From the NCBI GenBank assembly GCA_947599965.1, contig CANQFP010000005.1, forward strand, positions 1 through 43,304: 43,304 bases of DNA, written 5' to 3'. The translations under genes and the position numbers were made by a program. Below, piece by piece: positions 34,454-43,302 of the stretch (position 1 is its first letter; the number at the start of each line of letters is the position of its first letter). Source of the DNA: an uncultured Atopobiaceae bacterium (GTDB lineage Bacteria; Actinomycetota; Coriobacteriia; Coriobacteriales; Atopobiaceae). A model generated the notes under the pieces. That model was given only the letters and a program-made list of their open reading frames with translations, searched no databases and was not told the origin of the DNA.

Positions 34454-34765
34454 CTAGTCCTTGATGTGGGAAAGGCCGAGCTCGACGACGGCCTTCGCGT
34501 TCATGCGGCCGTAATCCATCATCGGGATGACGACGATGTCGATGCCCTTGTCGTTGAAGGGCTCGAAGGTCGGCACCGCGTAGCCGCACTGGGGGCCGAG
34601 GAGCACCACGTCGAACTCGCCCAGGCGCTGCATGCAGGAGCCCTCCATGAGTGGGATGAACGTCACATCCGCGTCGATTCCGTTCGTCTTCACGTACTCC
34701 TGCATCTTCTGGGTGAGAAGGCTCGAGGACATGCCGGCACCGCAAACCACGAGGATGTGCTTCAT
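34454..34765 (-). CDS. Orphan PTS IIB component, lactose/cellobiose family
   Basis: 103 aa from the ATG at 34765 (AAGGGAG upstream). VVCGAGMSSSLL carries the phosphorylated Cys (C8) and VVLLGPQCGY is the usual later strand. Family members pass phosphate from IIA to sugar on a IIC permease. Neither a matching IIC nor a lactose-type IIA is within the window, so it works with distant partners or is regulatory. The P1 peptidase gene lies just upstream on the same strand. Confidence 0.93.
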   Translation of the reverse strand: MKHILVVCGAGMSSSLLTQKMQEYVKTNGIDADVTFIPLMEGSCMQRLGEFDVVLLGPQCGYAVPTFEPFNDKGIDIVVIPMMDYGRMNAKAVVELGLSHIKD

Positions 34766-34867
34766 GGGAGCTCCCTTGCTCGCTCTGAGGGGTGATGACC
34801 CCATTCCGTTAGATGTCGTTCCCATGGTGCGGGAGTGAGCGCGTTCGCGCAAGAAGTCGGAGGGCGT

Positions 34868-35833
34868 TCAGCTCGCGGCTCCGGGGAGGCCGTAGGCCCC
34901 CTTCGCCTTTGCGCACGCCTCGACGATGGCGGCGGAGAGGGCGCGCACCGCAAGGAGCCCCACCAGGTCCTGCTCGGCCGGCACCTGCCCCGAGGCGAGG
35001 CAGAAGATCGTATCGCCGTCCATCGAGGTGTGGGTGGGCACGATCGTCTGAGCGTAGGCGTCGGCTCCCATCTGCGCCACGCGAAGCGCCTGGGGCTTCG
35101 TGAGCTTCGCGTTGGTGATGACGCAGGAGATCGTCGTGTTCGCACGTGGCGTGAGATCCGCGGCCGCGCTCGCCATGGCGCCGAGTGCCGCGTCGAGCGG
35201 CAGGGGAGCGGTTGCGGCGGGATCGGACCGGGCGCCGGCGATGACGCCGCCATCGGGTGCGATCACGTCGCCCACGGCGTTCACGGCGGCGATGGCGCCC
35301 ACGAGAAGCGGACCGGCCTCGACGACGGCCGTTCCGAGGCCGCTCTTCATCGAGCGCTCGGGGCCGAGGAACTTGCCCACGCTGCAGCCGGTGCCGGCGC
35401 CCACGTTGCCGATGGGAAGCGGGGTCTCGGGGTCCGCGTCGAGCGCGTCTGCCACGGCGGCGGCTCCCTCGGCGAGTCCGGGACGCACGAAGGCGCTCCC
35501 CACGGTGAGGTCGAAGACGCAGGCGGAGCTCACGATGGGCACCTTGCACACGCCCATGTCGAATCCGATGCCGCGACGCTCGAGCTCCTCGGCGGCGCCC
35601 GAGGCCGCGGTGAGCCCGAAGGCGGAGCCGCCGGAGAGCACGACGGCGTTCACCCGGTCCACCGTCTCCTCCGGGCGCAGGAGATCCGTCTCGCGGGTGG
35701 CCGGCGCGCCGCCGCGCACGTCCACGGCGCCCACGGCTCCCTCGGGGCACACGATGGCGGTGCAGCCGGTGCCGGCCTCCTCGAGGGTGGCGTGGCCGAT
35801 GAAGAAGCCGGGGATCTGTCGAACGTCTGCCAT
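34868..35833 (-). CDS. P1-family self-processing aminopeptidase
   Basis: 321 aa. DmpA/BapA/NylC-type Ntn hydrolases cut themselves before a Ser/Thr nucleophile; here PRANTTISCVITNAKL (residues 229-243) marks the processing site, with Thr233 the likely nucleophile. LSGGSAFGL (66-74) and GNVGAGTGCSVGKF are also typical. Such enzymes release N-terminal residues from beta-amino acid or D-amino acid peptides. The ATG at 35833 has TGAGGAGGAA upstream. It lies 102 nt upstream of a PTS IIB on the same strand. Confidence 0.92.
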   Translation of the reverse strand: MADVRQIPGFFIGHATLEEAGTGCTAIVCPEGAVGAVDVRGGAPATRETDLLRPEETVDRVNAVVLSGGSAFGLTAASGAAEELERRGIGFDMGVCKVPIVSSACVFDLTVGSAFVRPGLAEGAAAVADALDADPETPLPIGNVGAGTGCSVGKFLGPERSMKSGLGTAVVEAGPLLVGAIAAVNAVGDVIAPDGGVIAGARSDPAATAPLPLDAALGAMASAAADLTPRANTTISCVITNAKLTKPQALRVAQMGADAYAQTIVPTHTSMDGDTIFCLASGQVPAEQDLVGLLAVRALSAAIVEACAKAKGAYGLPGAAS

Positions 35834-36000: not shown

Positions 36001-36783
36001 ATGGGCGAGACGGCGCGGATACGCATCATCGCGGGCGGACCCTATCGGGTCGAGGGGTCCGTCCCGCTTTCCCAAGACGCCATCACGCCCTCCGAGGGCG
36101 GCGGCTACCCCATGCACTACGAGCACGTCTGCGACTACGCGGTGCCGAGCGGGGGCTACCTCCTCTGCCGGTGCGGTCGCTCGAAGACGATGCTCTTCTG
36201 CGACGGATCCCACGCGAAGATCGGCTTTTCCGGCGAGGAGGAGGCCTCCCGCGAGCCCTACCTCGCGCGCGCCCGGGAGTATCGAGGCCCCAAGCTCCGC
36301 CTTCTCGACGACAACCGATGCGCCTACGCGCGCTTCTGCCACCGCGCGGGAAGCGAGGTCTGGACCCTCACCGAGCGGGCCGCGGACGAGGTGGGCGAGG
36401 AAGACGCCATCGCGGCCGCCTGGGAGTGCCCCACGGGGCGCCTCGTCTCCTACGACCGCGCGAGCGGGGAGGCCTACGAGCAGGCGTGGGAGCCCTCGAT
36501 CGTCATCCTCGAGGACGTGCAGGAGGGGTGCTCCGGGCCGCTCTTCGTGCGCGGGGGCGTGGAGCTCGTGGGAGCCGACGGCTACGTCTACGAGCGGCGC
36601 AATCGCTACGCGCTCTGCCGTTGCGGCATGAGCCGGGAGACGCCGTTTTGCGACGCGTCCCACGTGAGCTATCGCTTCCGGGACGGCTCGGCCGGTCTCG
36701 AGGGCCGCTGGGAGGGCCTTGACACGAGCATCGAGGAGCTGCCCGATCTGGAGCCGCCGCACATGGATCACGGCGAGGCGTAG
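36001..36783 (+). CDS. Double CDGSH iron-sulfur protein with central Cys motif
   Basis: 260 aa. Two CDGSH-type 2Fe-2S sites: CRCGRSKTMLFCDGSH (C56, C58, C67, H71) and CRCGMSRETPFCDASH (C206, C208, C217, H221). Between them lies a divergent ferredoxin-like segment with CAYARFC (107-113) and WECPTG (C143), as in the Fer4_19 domain. Probably an electron-transfer or redox-sensing protein of the cytosol. The ATG at 36001 follows GGAGG. No partner gene is obvious. Confidence 0.92.
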   Translation: MGETARIRIIAGGPYRVEGSVPLSQDAITPSEGGGYPMHYEHVCDYAVPSGGYLLCRCGRSKTMLFCDGSHAKIGFSGEEEASREPYLARAREYRGPKLRLLDDNRCAYARFCHRAGSEVWTLTERAADEVGEEDAIAAAWECPTGRLVSYDRASGEAYEQAWEPSIVILEDVQEGCSGPLFVRGGVELVGADGYVYERRNRYALCRCGMSRETPFCDASHVSYRFRDGSAGLEGRWEGLDTSIEELPDLEPPHMDHGEA

Positions 36784-36866: not shown

Positions 36867-36889
36867 TCATCTACAGATGCTATAGATGA
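36867..36889. promoter_or_regulatory. Dyad upstream of the PTS IIA gene
   Basis: TCATCTA (36867-36873) and TAGATGA (36883-36889) form an inverted repeat, and the compact dyad CATCT-AC-AGATG lies within 36868-36879. It is 36-58 bp before the IIA start, a good place for the GntR/UTRA regulator encoded downstream. Confidence 0.5.
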
Positions 36890-36924
36890 GTGCACCATTT
36901 CCACCTGAGCGAAGGGGGCTCTCC

Positions 36925-37302
36925 ATGAAGCAGATCGTTCTCGCATCCCATGGCAAGTTTGCGGAAGGCGCGGCCGACACCCTGAAGATGGTGCTCGGCG
37001 ACATCCCCGGGCTGCACGTGATCACCTTCGACATGGACGACGCCTCCACCATCGAGGGCCCGGCGCGCGAGCTCTTCACGAGCATCGGAACCGTCGACGA
37101 CGTCTACGTGCTCACCGACATGATGGGCTCCTCCGTGAACACCGCCATGGTGAACCTCAAGAAGGAGTTCCCGAACATCATCGTCATCGCGGGCGTGAAC
37201 TTCCCGCTCATCCTCTCCGTGGCGATGCCGATGTTCGGCGCCAAGGGCGATGCCCTCGCGGCGGTCGTCGAGGAGTGCCGCGGCGGCATGGTCATCTGCT
37301 AG
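36925..37302 (+). CDS. Orphan PTS IIA component, mannose family
   Basis: 125 aa from the ATG at 36925 (AAGGGGG upstream). The phosphorylated His is in VLASHGKFAEGA (H9), followed by VYVLTDMMGSSVNTAM, standard for the mannose-type IIA domain. No mannose-family IIB, IIC or IID gene is present. A terminator and a GntR regulator follow. Confidence 0.93.
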   Translation: MKQIVLASHGKFAEGAADTLKMVLGDIPGLHVITFDMDDASTIEGPARELFTSIGTVDDVYVLTDMMGSSVNTAMVNLKKEFPNIIVIAGVNFPLILSVAMPMFGAKGDALAAVVEECRGGMVIC

Positions 37303-37326
37303 CGCCGGAACGCGGGAGTTGAACGG

Positions 37327-37358
37327 GGCCCCGCCTCCCTCGGGAGGTGGGGCCTTCC
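37327..37358 (+). terminator. GC-rich terminator between IIA and gntR
   Basis: GGCCCCGCCTCCC and GGGAGGTGGGGCC pair along 13 bp (one G-T) with a 2-base gap, tightly folded, followed by a T-poor tract. Likely stops IIA transcription, at least in part. Confidence 0.6.
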
Positions 37359-37413
37359 CCTTACAATGGTTGATGGATCATCGAGCCGAAGGGTCGTCGA
37401 GAGAGCGAAGGCC

Positions 37414-38130
37414 ATGGCAGAGAAGAAGCCGCTCTATCGCAGGATCTACGAGGATCTGCGGGATGAGATCGCCGAGGGCGTCTATCCCGTCGGCACGCGC
37501 ATCCCCTCGGAAACCGAGCTCGTGAACCGCTACGGCGTGAGCCGCCTCACCGTGCGGCGGGCCATCTCCGATCTTTCCGCCGAGGGCTTCCTCATCACCG
37601 TGCAGGGGCGCGGGAGCTTCGTGAAGAAGAACCGGCTCTGGACCTCGAAGCTGCGCTCGACGGTGGCCAAGAGCTTCACCGACGTCTGCATCGAATCCGG
37701 GCTGAGACCCGGGGCGCGCGTCGTCTCGGAGGAGATCGTCCGGGCGCCGATCCACTACGCCCGCGAGCTCGGAGTCCCCGACGACACGCTCTTCCTTTGC
37801 ATTCGCCGCATCCGCACGGCCGACGACTGGCCGATCATCGACGAACACACCTTCGTTCCCTATGAGAAGTACAAGGGCCTTCTCGAGCTGGATCTGAATG
37901 ACGCCTCGATCTTCGAGGCCATCGAGCGGGTGGGGGGCATGCGGCCCCTGCACTTCCAAGGCCAGCTCGTGAACGCCGTCATCGCCCTGCCCGATCAGGC
38001 GCGTGAGCTGAACATCCCGCTCGGCTCCGCGCTCCTGAAGCGCAGCTACACCTTCGTGGGAGCCGACGGGGTGCCGATCTCGGTGGCGCGGTCCTTCTTC
38101 GTGGGAGAGCGCTATACGCTCGAGTTCTAG
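37414..38130 (+). CDS. GntR-family regulator, HutC/UTRA subfamily
   Basis: 238 aa from the ATG at 37414. The winged helix is at about residues 8-75 (YRRIYEDLRDEIAEGVYPVG, then NRYGVSRLTVRRAISDL). The C-terminal UTRA effector domain ends RSYTFVGADGVPISVARSFF. UTRA regulators sense sugar phosphates or other small ligands and commonly control PTS operons, consistent with the upstream IIA and its dyad. The downstream HAD gene begins 33 nt later. Confidence 0.94.
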   Translation: MAEKKPLYRRIYEDLRDEIAEGVYPVGTRIPSETELVNRYGVSRLTVRRAISDLSAEGFLITVQGRGSFVKKNRLWTSKLRSTVAKSFTDVCIESGLRPGARVVSEEIVRAPIHYARELGVPDDTLFLCIRRIRTADDWPIIDEHTFVPYEKYKGLLELDLNDASIFEAIERVGGMRPLHFQGQLVNAVIALPDQARELNIPLGSALLKRSYTFVGADGVPISVARSFFVGERYTLEF

Positions 38131-38163
38131 GTGCCGACATCTGCTGGAAGGGGTTTTCTGAGC

Positions 38164-38988
38164 ATGTACCGAATCGTCGCGAGCGATATGGACGAGACCT
38201 TCATCGGCTACGACCACCGCGTGAACCCGAAGAACTACGAGGCGGTGCGGCTCATGGAGGAGGCGGGCGTGAAGTTCGTCGTGGCCACGGGTCGGCCGTA
38301 CTACTCGGTGCAGGGCACGCTCGCCGACCTCGGCACGAAGGGCTCTCCCGACGACTACACCATCACCTTCAACGGCGGCTACGTCTGCGCCAACGACGAT
38401 CGGGTGCTCGCGAGCCATACCCTCGACGAACGAGACGCCCAGGAACTCCTCGACTACGGCCTCGAGCTCGGGCTCTGCGAGCACATCTACACCCTCGACA
38501 CCACCTACGTGACGAACATGAACGAGAACGAGGTGGCCTATCTCCGCGGCCGCATGGTGGTGGAGGAGCTGCCCGTGAGACGGCTCACCGACCTCGGCGA
38601 GCCCGTCTACAAGATCCTCTACCAGAGCAACGACTTCGCGGGCCTCCACGTTCTGAGGGAGCGGATGCTCGAGGAGCGCCCCGAGTTCATGGCGCACTTC
38701 CAGACGAGCTTCTCCTCGGAGCGCTACTTCGAGTTCAACCCGGCCGGCGTCTCAAAGGGCTCGGGGCTGAAGGACGTGGCCGATTACCTCGGGATTCCGA
38801 TGAGCGAGACCATCGGCGTGGGCGATTCGGTGAACGATCTGCCGATGATCCTCGACGCCGGACTCGGCCTCGCCGTCGCCAACGTCTCCTCCTCCATCGC
38901 CGACGTCGTGCCGCACATCCTCTCGAGCTCCTGCGACGAGGGCGCCATGATGGAGGTCTACGAGCGCTACATCGCCCCCTCCGCCTGA
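38164..38988 (+). CDS. HAD-IIB (Cof-type) phosphatase
   Basis: 274 aa. IVASDMDETFIGYD is motif I (D8, D10), VATGRPYYS motif II, GVSKGSGL motif III and IGVGDSVNDLPMI motif IV. Probably a phosphosugar phosphatase. It is 33 nt after gntR and likely shares its transcript. The ATG at 38164 follows GGAAGGGG; a GTG at 38131 directly after the gntR stop is less likely. Confidence 0.93.
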   Translation: MYRIVASDMDETFIGYDHRVNPKNYEAVRLMEEAGVKFVVATGRPYYSVQGTLADLGTKGSPDDYTITFNGGYVCANDDRVLASHTLDERDAQELLDYGLELGLCEHIYTLDTTYVTNMNENEVAYLRGRMVVEELPVRRLTDLGEPVYKILYQSNDFAGLHVLRERMLEERPEFMAHFQTSFSSERYFEFNPAGVSKGSGLKDVADYLGIPMSETIGVGDSVNDLPMILDAGLGLAVANVSSSIADVVPHILSSSCDEGAMMEVYERYIAPSA

Positions 38989-39140: not shown

Positions 39141-40091
39141 TTGTCGGAATCGCTGGAAATCGTCCTCATCACCATCGAGCAGATGTCGGTGCTCTTCGTG
39201 GTGGCGTGCGTGGGCTTCTTCTGCGCCAAGCGCGGCATCATCGACTCCAACGTCCGCCAGAGGCTGACGCGCCTCCTCATGGACATCGGCATTCCCTGCA
39301 TGCTCATCGGCTCGGTGGGAAGCTCGGAGCCGGGCGGCGACGTCGGCGGCATCGTCATCGCGTTCGGCCTCTCCTTCTTCCAGGGCATCTCCATCTACGC
39401 CACCGGCTGGCTCTCCGACCTCGTGCTTCGCGTACCCAAGCGCGACTGGCCGCTCTACCCCTTCATGTCGCTCTGCAACAACACGGGCTTCGTCGGCATC
39501 CCCGTCTGCGCCGCCATCTTCGGCGAGGGCTGCATCATCTACGTGAGCGTCTACGTGATGATCATGAGCCTCATCACCTTCTCGCTCGGCTTCTTCACCA
39601 TCGCGCCCCATGAGCCGGGGACGAAGTTCACCGTGCCGTGGAAGATGATCGTGAGCCCCTGCATGGTGGGCGCGCTCATCGCGCTCGCGCTCTTCCTCTC
39701 GCCCTTCCGCCTGCCGGCCGTCGTGCAGGACTCCGTGACCACCATCGGCTCCATCACGACGCCGCTCGCGATGATGATCGTGGGCGCCATCGTCTCGGAG
39801 ATGCCCTTCGGCGAGATCTTCGGGGAGTGGCGGCTCTACGGCTACGCGCTCATCCGGCTCCTCATCGTGCCGGCGATCCTCTACTTCGCCCTCATGCCCA
39901 TCGTGGGCGATCCGCTCCAGGTGGGGATCTTCTGCACGCTCTTCGCCATGCCCACCGGCCCGATGTGCCCGACGTTCTGCCTGCAGTTCGGCGCGAACGA
40001 TCGGCTCGCGGCGCGCGGCGTCGTGCTCACGGCGATCCTCTCCTTCGTCCTCATCCCCATGCTCATCATCTTCATGAACGTCATGGCTTGA
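39141..40091 (+). CDS. AEC-family (auxin efflux carrier-like) transporter
   Basis: 316 aa from the TTG at 39141 (GGGAGGG upstream). About nine or ten membrane helices. The repeat-end motifs SLCNNTGFVGIPVCAAIFGE and MPTGPMCPTFCLQFGAND match the AEC fold, which exports or imports organic acids. The substrate is unknown. The open frame starts earlier (39033), but that part is not membrane-like. The preceding 150 bp hold no gene I recognise. Confidence 0.88.
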   Translation: MSESLEIVLITIEQMSVLFVVACVGFFCAKRGIIDSNVRQRLTRLLMDIGIPCMLIGSVGSSEPGGDVGGIVIAFGLSFFQGISIYATGWLSDLVLRVPKRDWPLYPFMSLCNNTGFVGIPVCAAIFGEGCIIYVSVYVMIMSLITFSLGFFTIAPHEPGTKFTVPWKMIVSPCMVGALIALALFLSPFRLPAVVQDSVTTIGSITTPLAMMIVGAIVSEMPFGEIFGEWRLYGYALIRLLIVPAILYFALMPIVGDPLQVGIFCTLFAMPTGPMCPTFCLQFGANDRLAARGVVLTAILSFVLIPMLIIFMNVMA

Positions 40092-40157
40092 CCGGGTGAC
40101 GATTCTTCAATCAGCACGTTTACGACGATCTGGAGGGCCTCTTCACTCGCGTAGAGG

Positions 40158-40456
40158 CTAGTAGGCCCGAGGCGAGACGCCGTAGCGCGCCTTGAAGGCG
40201 CGGTAGAAGTTCGAGCTGTTGCGATACCCGAGCATCTGGGCGATCTCCTCCACGGAGAGCGATGTCTCGCGCAAGAGCACCTCGGCGCGCTCCATCCTTT
40301 GCTCGGTGACGAGCTCCGTGAAGGTGCGTCCGGTCTGCCGAGCCAGCGAAAGTACGTCTCGCCGGGGATGCCCGTCTCCTCCGGCCGATAGGTCCAGTCG
40401 TAGGTGGCGAAGCGCTCCGCGAGGAGATCGATCGCCCTCGTGATGCCGAGTGCCAT
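40158..40456 (-). pseudogene. AraC-family regulator, truncated and frameshifted
   Basis: The C-terminal helix-turn-helix is clear in one frame: TGRTFTELVTEQRMERAEVL, then SVEEIAQMLGYRNSSNFYRA and FKARYGVSPRAY, ending in TAG at 40160-40158. The start region (MALGITRAIDLLAERF, then GETYFRWLGR) is in another frame, so a shift lies near 40345-40360. The usual ligand-binding domain of about 170 aa is absent. Probably non-functional. Confidence 0.75.
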
Positions 40457-40573
40457 GGTGCGGCCTTTCTGATATGAGGAAAAGTCACACTAGATCATAT
40501 GGATTGGCGCAGACAAGCGTGACGTTTCTCGAGAACATATGCCGTGGTACGAACTGTTTTCTAAGGAGTGCAC

Positions 40574-41062
40574 ATGACCGAACTCGAGAAGCTCGACGCA
40601 GGGCTCGAATACGACTTCTGGGACAAGGACGTGAACGCGCGCAAGCTTCGCGCGATCGACCTCTGCGCCGAGCTCAACGCCGCCCCCGAGGAGGACGAGC
40701 GCATCCAGGCGCTCACGAAGCACCTCATCACCCAGCGCTGGGAGCCCACGGCCGTGGACATCATCCAGGAGGGTGGCGGCAAGCGCCGTGCCATGGAGGC
40801 CTACTTCGAGCACCTGGGCATCGCGCCCGAGGAGACGATCGCCTTCGGCGACGGCGCGAACGACATCCCCATGCTCGAGACGGCGGGCATCGGCGTGGCG
40901 ATGGGAAACGCATCGGACGAGGTGAAGGCCCACGCCGACCTCGTGAGCGACGCCTGCGACGCGGGCGGCATCTGGAACGCGCTCGTCGCGCTCGGCGTGA
41001 TCGAGGGCGAGCGGGTGGAGCGCGAGAGCGCAGGGCAGGCGGGTGCGAGCGCGGTCTCCTAA
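40574..41062 (+). pseudogene. Chimeric ORF: sugar O-acetyltransferase start joined to HAD phosphatase tail
   Basis: 162 aa from the ATG at 40574 (TAAGGAG upstream). The first 45 residues (TELEKLDAGLEYDFWDKDVN, then ARKLRAIDLCAELN) resemble the maltose-acetyltransferase N-terminal domain. From about residue 48 onward the sequence is the C-terminal core of a Cof-type HAD: GGGKRRAMEAYFEHLGIAPE, then AFGDGANDIPML. The HAD motif I aspartates are missing, so no phosphatase activity is expected. It is open throughout, so it could be expressed, but a deletion-fusion remnant is more likely. Confidence 0.72.
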
Positions 41063-41110: not shown

Positions 41111-42562
41111 ATGACAAGCCTTTCGGAATCCTTCGTTTCCTGGGTGCTCGAGCAGGGGCTTCCCGGCAAGGTCACCGAGCTTCGAGGCGAGGGGCCCGTG
41201 GCGTGCTCCCTCGAGATCGAGACTGGGCAGGCCAGGGGCACCATCAACGTCTACGACCTCGGCGCCGAGGTACCGAACATCGTGGAGTTCCGCATCGTGC
41301 GGAAGGGCCACGAGGACGACCCTGCCTTCCACCTGCACTTCGAGATGCTCGACCTCGCCCGCGCCAAGGAGCTCTTCGGCGAGATGCGCGACGTGCTCGA
41401 GCGGCTCGAGCACCCGAGGGCCACGAAGGTGCTGCTCTGCTGCTCGGGCGGCCTCACGACGACGATGTTCGCCGACGAGCTCACGCGCACGGCCGAGCGC
41501 TTCCATCAGGACTACGTCTTCGAGGCGAAGGGGCTCGAGCGCGCGATCGAGGAGGCGCGTCGCATGGACGAGGGCTACGCCTGCGTGATGCTCGCGCCGC
41601 AGGTGGGCTACCTGCGCGATCGCGCCGTGAGGGCCTTCCCGGGCATCCCCGTCTTCGAGGCGCCGGCGAAGACCTTCGGCACCTACGACGCGCTCGGCGC
41701 CTTCCGCCTCGTGATGGACGCGCTCGAGCAGGAGATCGACGAGCCGGATCCGGCGGGGGAGAGGATCGCGCTCGAGCCGCTCCTCGACCTCGCGCGCGCC
41801 TCGAAGGTGCTCGTCATCCTCCTTCGTCATCTGAGCTCTGGGGCGCGCCTCGAATGGCGGCTCTACGAGCATGACGCGGTCGTGAAGAGCGGGCGCGTGG
41901 TGAAAGGGGCGCTTCGCTACCACGACGCGCGGGATCTCATCGCCACGCTCGCCTGCGGGGAGCTCGACGTGGCGGGCCTCGATGCGATTGGCATCGCGGT
42001 GCCCGGCATCGTGCAGGACGGGACGGCGATGCTGCCGTGGCGAAAGCTCGAGCCCTATGACCTCGCGGGCAAGATCGAGGAGCGCTTCGGCGTGCCCACC
42101 TTCGTGGAAAACGACGCGAACGCCGCCTGCGTGGGCTGCTACGTCTCGCAAGACGACTATGAGAACGTGACGCTCCTCGTGCAGCACGCGGGCCACGTCG
42201 TGGGTGGCGCCGGCACCATCGTGGGCGGCCGGCTCGTGAAGGGCTACAAGGGCTACGCGGGCGAGATCAAGGCCATCCAGCAGCTCTACAGCCTCCCCGA
42301 GGACGTCGAATCGCGCGCGTGGAGCCCCGAGGCCATGACGCAGGTGGCGATGGCGCACATCGTGGCCGCCTCCTCGCTCGTGGCGCCCGAGGCCTGCTTC
42401 GTGGCCATGGACATGGTCCCCGACATGGAGGCGCTCAAAGTCGAGGTGGAAAAGCACATGCCCGCCGCCTTCGCGCCCGCGCTCATCCACGTGGCAAACG
42501 AGCGCGAGCGCACGTTCCTCGGCATGTTCGCCCTCGCGCTCTCGGGCCTCCAAGCGAGGTAG
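41111..42562 (+). CDS. Fusion protein: unknown N-domain, PTS IIB-like domain, degenerate ROK domain
   Basis: 483 aa. Residues 1-95 form a domain I do not recognise. Residues 103-205 resemble a lactose-type PTS IIB: KVLLCCSGGLTTTMFADEL with Cys111 in the phospho-Cys position, then CVMLAPQVGYL, matching VVLLGPQCGY of the IIB at 34454. Residues 230-480 are ROK-like: IGIAVPGIVQDG, VENDANAACVG with the catalytic-position Asp335, and GAGTIVGGRLVKGYKGYAGEI. The DxGGT phosphate loop is absent (ILLRHLSSGARLEW sits there) and so is the zinc motif, so kinase activity is doubtful. A phosphorylation-responsive sensor is one inference. The C-terminus abuts an antisense remnant. Confidence 0.82.
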   Translation: MTSLSESFVSWVLEQGLPGKVTELRGEGPVACSLEIETGQARGTINVYDLGAEVPNIVEFRIVRKGHEDDPAFHLHFEMLDLARAKELFGEMRDVLERLEHPRATKVLLCCSGGLTTTMFADELTRTAERFHQDYVFEAKGLERAIEEARRMDEGYACVMLAPQVGYLRDRAVRAFPGIPVFEAPAKTFGTYDALGAFRLVMDALEQEIDEPDPAGERIALEPLLDLARASKVLVILLRHLSSGARLEWRLYEHDAVVKSGRVVKGALRYHDARDLIATLACGELDVAGLDAIGIAVPGIVQDGTAMLPWRKLEPYDLAGKIEERFGVPTFVENDANAACVGCYVSQDDYENVTLLVQHAGHVVGGAGTIVGGRLVKGYKGYAGEIKAIQQLYSLPEDVESRAWSPEAMTQVAMAHIVAASSLVAPEACFVAMDMVPDMEALKVEVEKHMPAAFAPALIHVANERERTFLGMFALALSGLQAR

Positions 42563-42651: not shown

Positions 42652-42808
42652 TCATGGTCTTTCGACCGGTCGAGTCCTTCTTCCACCAAGAATAATGAGG
42701 GATGGGGAAAGGTATGTATAATGCCAATTGACGATGCGAGCATACGCTGCAGACATAGTGACTGCTAACTCCTAATGTGTTACAATGTCGTACACGAAAG
42801 GAGTGCGC

Positions 42809-43033
42809 ATGACCTCTTCTACAATCACCATTCGCCTGGACGCAGATGAGAAGCGCCTCATCAACGATTATGCGAACGCTTATGGCACATCGGTCTCGGA
42901 GTTCATCCGTAGAACGGTGCTCGAGTTCCTGGAGGACCAGCTGGACCTCCAACAGTGGTATGAGGCCAAGCGCGAGTTCGACCGCGATCCCGAGATCTTG
43001 AGCGCCGAGGAGATTGCCGAGAAGTACCTGTGA
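42809..43033 (+). CDS. RelB-like ribbon-helix-helix antitoxin
   Basis: 74 aa from the ATG at 42809 (AAAGGAG upstream). STITIRLDADEKRLINDYAN then GTSVSEFIRRTVLEFLED is the ribbon-helix-helix form common in RelB/DUF6290 antitoxins, with an acidic C-terminal toxin-binding segment. A TACAAT box (42781-42786) with flanking GTGT/ACAC could be the regulated promoter. The partner toxin overlaps by 4 bp. Confidence 0.85.
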   Translation: MTSSTITIRLDADEKRLINDYANAYGTSVSEFIRRTVLEFLEDQLDLQQWYEAKREFDRDPEILSAEEIAEKYL

Positions 43034-43302
43034 GCTGGCGCCTCGTTTTCTCCAAGCGCTCGGACCGGCAGCTCGGGAAGATGGACCCCGGGGTCCGGCG
43101 CATCATCGTCACCTGGCTGCTCAAGCACATCGACGGTTGCGAGGACCCGCGCACCTTCGGAAAGGCGTTGACAGCGAACCGTAGCGGGCAGTGGCGTTAT
43201 CGCGTAGGCGACTATCGGGTGCTCTGCGAACTCCATGATGATGAGGTCATCGTCCTCGTCATCGATGTGGGTCATAGAAGCAACATCTATCGGGACCGAT
43301 AG
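43030..43302 (+). CDS. RelE-family toxin
   Basis: 90 aa from a GTG overlapping the antitoxin stop (GTGA). LVFSKRSDRQLGKMDPGVRR, then DPRTFGKALTANRSGQWRYR and VGDYRVLCEL is the standard RelE pattern with the basic catalytic cluster (R and K residues) and IDVGHRSNIYRDR at the end. Likely a ribosome-dependent mRNA endonuclease. It ends 2 bp before the window edge. Confidence 0.92.
   Translation: MSWRLVFSKRSDRQLGKMDPGVRRIIVTWLLKHIDGCEDPRTFGKALTANRSGQWRYRVGDYRVLCELHDDEVIVLVIDVGHRSNIYRDR

Follow-up and report, generated by a model that had tools for sequence, protein, structure and literature searches.

The gene at positions 41111–42562 (+ strand) of the window, by which we mean the entire 43,304-nucleotide stretch of uncultured Atopobiaceae DNA analyzed here, encodes a protein of 483 residues in which an N-terminal α-β5-α domain (residues 1–100) is followed by a PTS IIB domain of the lactose/cellobiose type (residues 101–212) and a full ROK fold (residues 231–483). 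This protein, IIB-ROK, probably acts not as an enzyme but as a sensor of a kind not yet described, and the data support a non-catalytic ROK portion joined to an intact-looking IIB domain. The sensor reading follows from the observation that genes of this family of dead kinases often adjoin, or are fused to, those of enzymes whose substrates are phosphorylated sugars. Specifically, we propose, with confidence that is about evenly balanced, that IIB-ROK is a pseudokinase that is gated by PTS phosphorylation and regulates phosphosugar enzymes, through a mechanism that we infer below.

As claimed in the initial annotation, the 483-codon frame is open; it is also intact. The domain searches suggested there placed both PF02302 (PTS_IIB) and PF00480 (ROK) above their Pfam cut-offs, and structure prediction likewise recovered both folds (AlphaFold2 on 41 sequences, mean pLDDT 86.3, pTM 0.81). 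Scanning the 483-residue protein against NCBIfam returned zero models at cut-off, which places it outside every curated NCBIfam family. Purifying selection acts on the gene, with dN/dS values of 0.18–0.35 against four orthologues from the same genus; ratios for single domains, such as the 3.5 obtained for the IIB domain in one pair, reflect too few changes to be usable. The source genome (G000) spans 1.43 Mb and is 96% complete.

With respect to the IIB domain (41411–41746, + strand), the Pfam match covers residues 106–188 (E 3.5e-5, 24.8 bits) and is shared by 40 of 41 relatives. A chance match, which the modest excess over the cut-off of 23.6 bits might suggest, was rejected in light of the agreement between family profile and fold. 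Specifically, the alignment of the family profile to the chitobiose IIB 1h9c runs from one end to the other (E 6.7e-14, residues 2–103 of 106), and Foldseek superimposes residues 101–212 on IIBchb 2wy2 across the entire IIB domain (TM 0.86, rmsd 1.9). Cys111 pairs with the IIB active-site cysteine in the alignment and opens the phosphorylation loop C111-S-G-G-L-T-T117 (41441–41461, + strand); along with Thr116, Pro163 and Gln164, it is invariant in 41/41 members. The IIB-like region with Cys111 that had been noted at the outset is thus borne out, and an IIB fold is present where it had been placed, in residues 103–205.

The ROK domain (41801–42559, + strand) is likewise recognizable as a fold but has lost kinase motifs. 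Pfam matches residues 277–386 (E 6.4e-14, 52.6 bits against a cut-off of 22.9) and does so in all 41 relatives, and residues 231–483 superimpose on the ManNAc kinase 6jda over 235 aligned positions (Z 22.5, rmsd 2.8), which amounts to a complete ROK fold. Using the list of ROK kinase motifs given in PMC5458393, the DxGxT nucleotide motif was not found at columns 236–247 in the 41 members, and the zinc motif CxCGxxGCx(E/D) was not found in the family alignment, although some ROK kinases also lack the latter (PMC5458393). At the ExGH motif (columns 383–390), Glu385 is kept in 36/41 members, the residues counted at position 388 include no His, and the protein in the window reads E-I-K-A. In the N334-D335-A336-N337 segment (42110–42121, + strand), Asn334 and Asn337 are conserved, whereas in the column of Asp335, the ROK catalytic base, 27 of the 41 sequences have Asn, 12 have Asp and 2 have Ser. 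The initial annotation was therefore correct that this protein keeps NDAN, but this is not a property of the family. Its description of a ROK region devoid of a DxGGT loop, a zinc motif and a helix-turn-helix does hold, both in the alignment and in Pfam searches of the 41 members, and its view of the ROK part as non-catalytic gains support from the lost kinase motifs. Taken together, an invariant phospho-switch beside lost kinase motifs indicates that selection keeps the switch and not kinase catalysis. The sugar contacts of the ROK fold are also partly lost, and ligand binding is therefore uncertain.

This architecture is not confined to one strain, a possibility that had been raised against it. 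Of 140 Atopobiaceae genomes searched for orthologues, 43 carry the N-terminal domain, with as many as 7 matches in a single genome; they belong to 6 of 35 genera, and the three-domain order occurs in these 43. Within carrier genomes the three-domain order is usually present in multiple copies (two IIB-ROK proteins in the source genome), and full-length members are either ~480 or ~740 residues long. Other Coriobacteriales families gave weak matches only, which were IIB-sized or partial, and samples of the class and phylum contained no relatives outside the source genus at E<=1e-20; the profile search was scoped to Actinomycetota, and absence elsewhere, Bacillota included, is not proven. A contig scan with the single sequence, which is able to find close relatives only, returned 'Lapin' MAGs, which carry the label uncultured Atopobiaceae. 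A mobile or phage origin was rejected, as no match to the family came from plasmids, phages or viral contigs.

Comparative evidence for function comes from the genes around IIB-ROK, which we tabulated for 82 loci holding 88 IIB-ROK genes, 87 of them testable for an upstream gene; genes in these loci were called with a simple codon-position script, and Pfam and NCBIfam served to confirm the families of the neighbors. The families matched were MupG_N, MupG_C, PTS_IIA, Glyco_hydro_1, OMPdecase/HUMPS, PTS-HPr, Hydrolase_3 and Alpha-amylase. The same-strand gene directly upstream encodes a HAD protein in 8 cases, GH1 in 6, MupG in 6, a hexulose-phosphate synthase-like protein in 6 and HPr in 1. These classes precede 27/87 IIB-ROK genes, and for the remaining genes of those loci the figure is 15/592 (Fisher p 3.6e-16, a value that is optimistic because related loci are counted repeatedly and the classes were picked with the data in view). 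Partners track clades on the tree: HAD recurs in four lineages (the source clade, a clade of five, L053 and, as the second gene, L143), and GH1 occurs at about five tree positions. In 31/87 cases the 350 bp upstream are free of same-strand genes. Since neighbors differ from clade to clade and many copies are solitary, no single partner is universal. Other recurrent arrangements include a conserved trio of an MFS sugar/H+ symporter-like gene, a hexulose-phosphate synthase-like gene and IIB-ROK (L049, L104, L107, L109, L110 and L117). One further clade follows STAS-domain genes and/or an SDF dicarboxylate symporter (L057:310-4266, L048:7277-10438 and L055:9191-11012); the N-terminal 140 residues of this symporter have no family match.

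The family is also associated with a metallophosphoesterase. In one clade, comprising 20 sampled genes, a metallophosphoesterase domain (PF00149, E 5e-6) is fused to the N-terminus of IIB-ROK, and the motifs GDIHG, CGDFG, GNHE, SHD and GHYH are all present in the 18 fully checkable genes, two members with over-extended starts having been left out of the SHD and GHYH check. At L105, a separate metallophosphoesterase gene with its motifs kept, though without a Pfam match, lies 8 bp downstream of an IIB-ROK gene that itself follows MupG. Fusion in one lineage combined with adjacency in another is classic evidence of joint function, which is thereby suggested for the metallophosphoesterase and IIB-ROK. 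An operon at L095:4010-9928 contains GH1, an 84-residue HPr-family protein, a metallophosphoesterase-IIB-ROK fusion and a second IIB-ROK.

In terms of mechanism, the invariant residues suggest that a lactose-type IIA phosphorylates Cys111, such that the phosphorylated share would report PEP and sugar influx via the PTS. The ROK domain, devoid of the ATP loop, may serve as a ligand-sensing and conformationally mobile module, the sugar-side Asn and Glu being kept in most members. Both inputs would then be read out by the N-terminal α-β5-α domain or by an attached partner, namely an operon-encoded or fused sugar-phosphate enzyme such as the metallophosphoesterase, a HAD phosphatase or the phosphoglycosidases. 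We propose that hydrolysis of phosphorylated sugars would thus be tuned to PTS traffic. A different output is conceivable, in which IIB-ROK would carry out soluble, ATP-independent phosphotransfer, with the IIB phosphocysteine either phosphorylating a sugar in the ROK cleft or switching the fused metallophosphoesterase as a phosphatase output of the PTS; this we regard as unlikely.

The gating that we favor requires a supply of phosphate to Cys111. EI and HPr are encoded on contig C12 of the source genome, a second HPr-like match lies on C1, and the one lactose-type IIA found is on a separate contig (C47:851–1132); these components provide a route to Cys111. The initial annotation had looked instead to the orphan IIA and IIB nearby, and this partnership was not supported. 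The IIA at 36886 is of the mannose type (EIIA-man, PF03610) and was rejected as the cognate partner because its PTS class differs from that of a lactose-type IIB, and the orphan lactose-type IIB (34454–34852) lies 6 kb from the IIB-ROK gene on the − strand. The comparative evidence, drawn from gene order and fusions, points to phosphosugar enzymes and phosphatases as the probable partners and not to these two orphans. As to their own surroundings, a GntR/UTRA regulator and then a HAD hydrolase come after the IIA (36886–38988), with no IIC or IID seen nearby, and the IIB follows a Peptidase S58 (DmpA-like) gene with which it possibly shares a transcript (34454–35833, − strand).

The same PTS genes bear on whether the IIB domain is simply a transporter subunit and the ROK domain an appendage to it, for example a membrane-tethered sensor of the transporter. 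Such a role would fit the full conservation of the IIB active-site loop as well as the lactose-type IIA found in an operon with IIB-ROK at L039, L040, L100, L103 and L114. It is nonetheless improbable, as most IIB-ROK copies have no adjacent PTS gene, the MupG-type operon of L114 has a stand-alone IIB-like gene, and a separate IIB match sits beside the lactose-type IIA on C47 of the source genome.

We consider it quite improbable that IIB-ROK is a soluble PEP-dependent sugar kinase, in which the IIB phosphocysteine would donate to a sugar in the ROK cleft and so replace both ATP and the membrane IIC. An intact IIB loop combined with a ROK fold in which the nucleotide side is lost, while Asn334 and Glu385 persist in most members, is what such an enzyme might look like; Asp335 is retained in the protein of the window, and a non-ATP donor has a precedent among ROK proteins in polyphosphate glucomannokinase (PMC12696579). 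Weighing more heavily is the loss of the catalytic base, Asp335 being Asn or Ser in 29/41 members, as well as that of the ExGH His. Moreover, the neighboring enzymes strip phosphate or split phosphosugars, for which no kinase is needed.

The N-terminal domain (41111–41410, + strand) raises the question of whether IIB-ROK is instead a ROK-type transcription regulator, with this domain replacing the helix-turn-helix and contacting DNA or RNA polymerase. No Pfam family covers residues 1–100. Modelled alone, they form an α-β5-α arrangement at a pLDDT of 94.4, with E59, F73 and L88 invariant, and fold matches are moderate, the best being an Rhs immunity protein (7zhm_C, Z 9.9), then the FP domain of Fbxo7 (Z 8.8) and, lower down, DR_1245 and SycT. 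We rejected homology to any of these in favor of a common arrangement. In the family search, the domain occurred only in frames of at least IIB-ROK size, apart from shorter and probably truncated ones. ROK repressors are related to sugar kinases and have sugar-sensing domains, E. coli Mlc is a ROK repressor controlled by binding dephosphorylated EIICB-Glc (PMC3901232), and the Mlc structure 3bp8 is among the fold matches listed for IIB-ROK. Nevertheless, Pfam revealed no DNA-binding or HTH family above chance in the 41 members, and the N-terminal domain, whose nearest folds include several of a protein-binding type, is not an HTH in the model, all of which leaves a transcriptional role with little credence.

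Within the window, genes upstream of IIB-ROK are deleted or truncated. The upstream neighbor (40568–41062, + strand) is an in-frame deletion chimera that joins the beginning of a maltose-acetyltransferase gene to the C-terminal half of a gene for a Cof-type HAD phosphatase, with a junction at about 40669–40684; relative to L003 some 980 bp are missing and a 16-bp overlap marks the junction, for which either a genuine deletion between short repeats or an error in the assembly could account. An intact HAD gene precedes the IIB-ROK orthologues in L003 and L004. With the adjacent HAD truncated and IIB-ROK still under purifying selection, HAD is not an essential partner here. Further upstream lie the remnant of an AraC-type regulator (39881–40488, − strand), intact in L004 (2579–3535, HTH_AraC), and a gene that combines CDGSH iron-sulfur motifs with a divergent ferredoxin-like Fer4_19 domain (36001–36783); just downstream is a toxin-antitoxin pair (42785–43302) of a DUF6290/ribbon-helix-helix antitoxin and a ParE-family toxin. 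Deleted or truncated AraC and HAD genes might suggest that IIB-ROK is itself a decaying or neutral fusion without function, but this is hardly credible given dN/dS of 0.18–0.35 among orthologues, multiple copies in 6 genera with invariant active-site residues, and full-length open frames in relatives from several genera.

Turning to known systems, PTS IIB domains are familiar either from transporters, of which they form a subunit, or from PRD regulators, where they act as switches, while known ROK proteins are kinases or repressors that bind DNA. The initial annotation knew of no described system with this domain order, and a search of open-access full-text literature found no paper describing a ROK-IIB fusion. 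As a IIB domain, that of IIB-ROK resembles those of the N,N'-diacetylchitobiose/cellobiose PTS (1h9c, 1iib and 2wy2) along its entire length, including the active-site Cys loop and the PQ motif, but it is fused to two further domains and a transporter role is only putative. The ROK part shares its entire fold and the Asn residues near the sugar site with sugar kinases such as ManNAc kinase and glucokinase, and differs from them in having no DxGxT, zinc motif or ExGH His and in having mostly lost the catalytic Asp. The PRD regulators with EIIB-Gat-like domains offer a parallel for an IIB-like domain inside a soluble protein, where in Bacillus subtilis MtlR the phosphorylation state of Cys419 sets activity (PMC3217849); Cys111 may be a comparable switch. 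IIB-ROK differs in that it has no IIA or DNA-binding domain, no PRD match in Pfam among the 41 members, and a ROK fold as the partner.

Another counterpart is Mlc, which in E. coli is sequestered by dephosphorylated EIICB-Glc, such that a ROK protein cooperates with a PTS IIB domain and the signal is the state of phosphorylation (PMC3901232). In that system the two partners are distinct proteins, the IIB is of the glucose family and the HTH of Mlc binds DNA, whereas here a lactose/cellobiose-family IIB is covalently fused and no DNA-binding domain is present. IIB-ROK can be seen as a covalent counterpart of the Mlc-EIIB pairing, in which one polypeptide would suffice to test how phosphorylation of a IIB domain affects a ROK fold. 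If our proposal is true, a conserved IIB switch and a dead ROK domain beside or fused to phosphatases and phosphoglycosidases would constitute a new output branch of PTS signaling in gut Actinomycetota.
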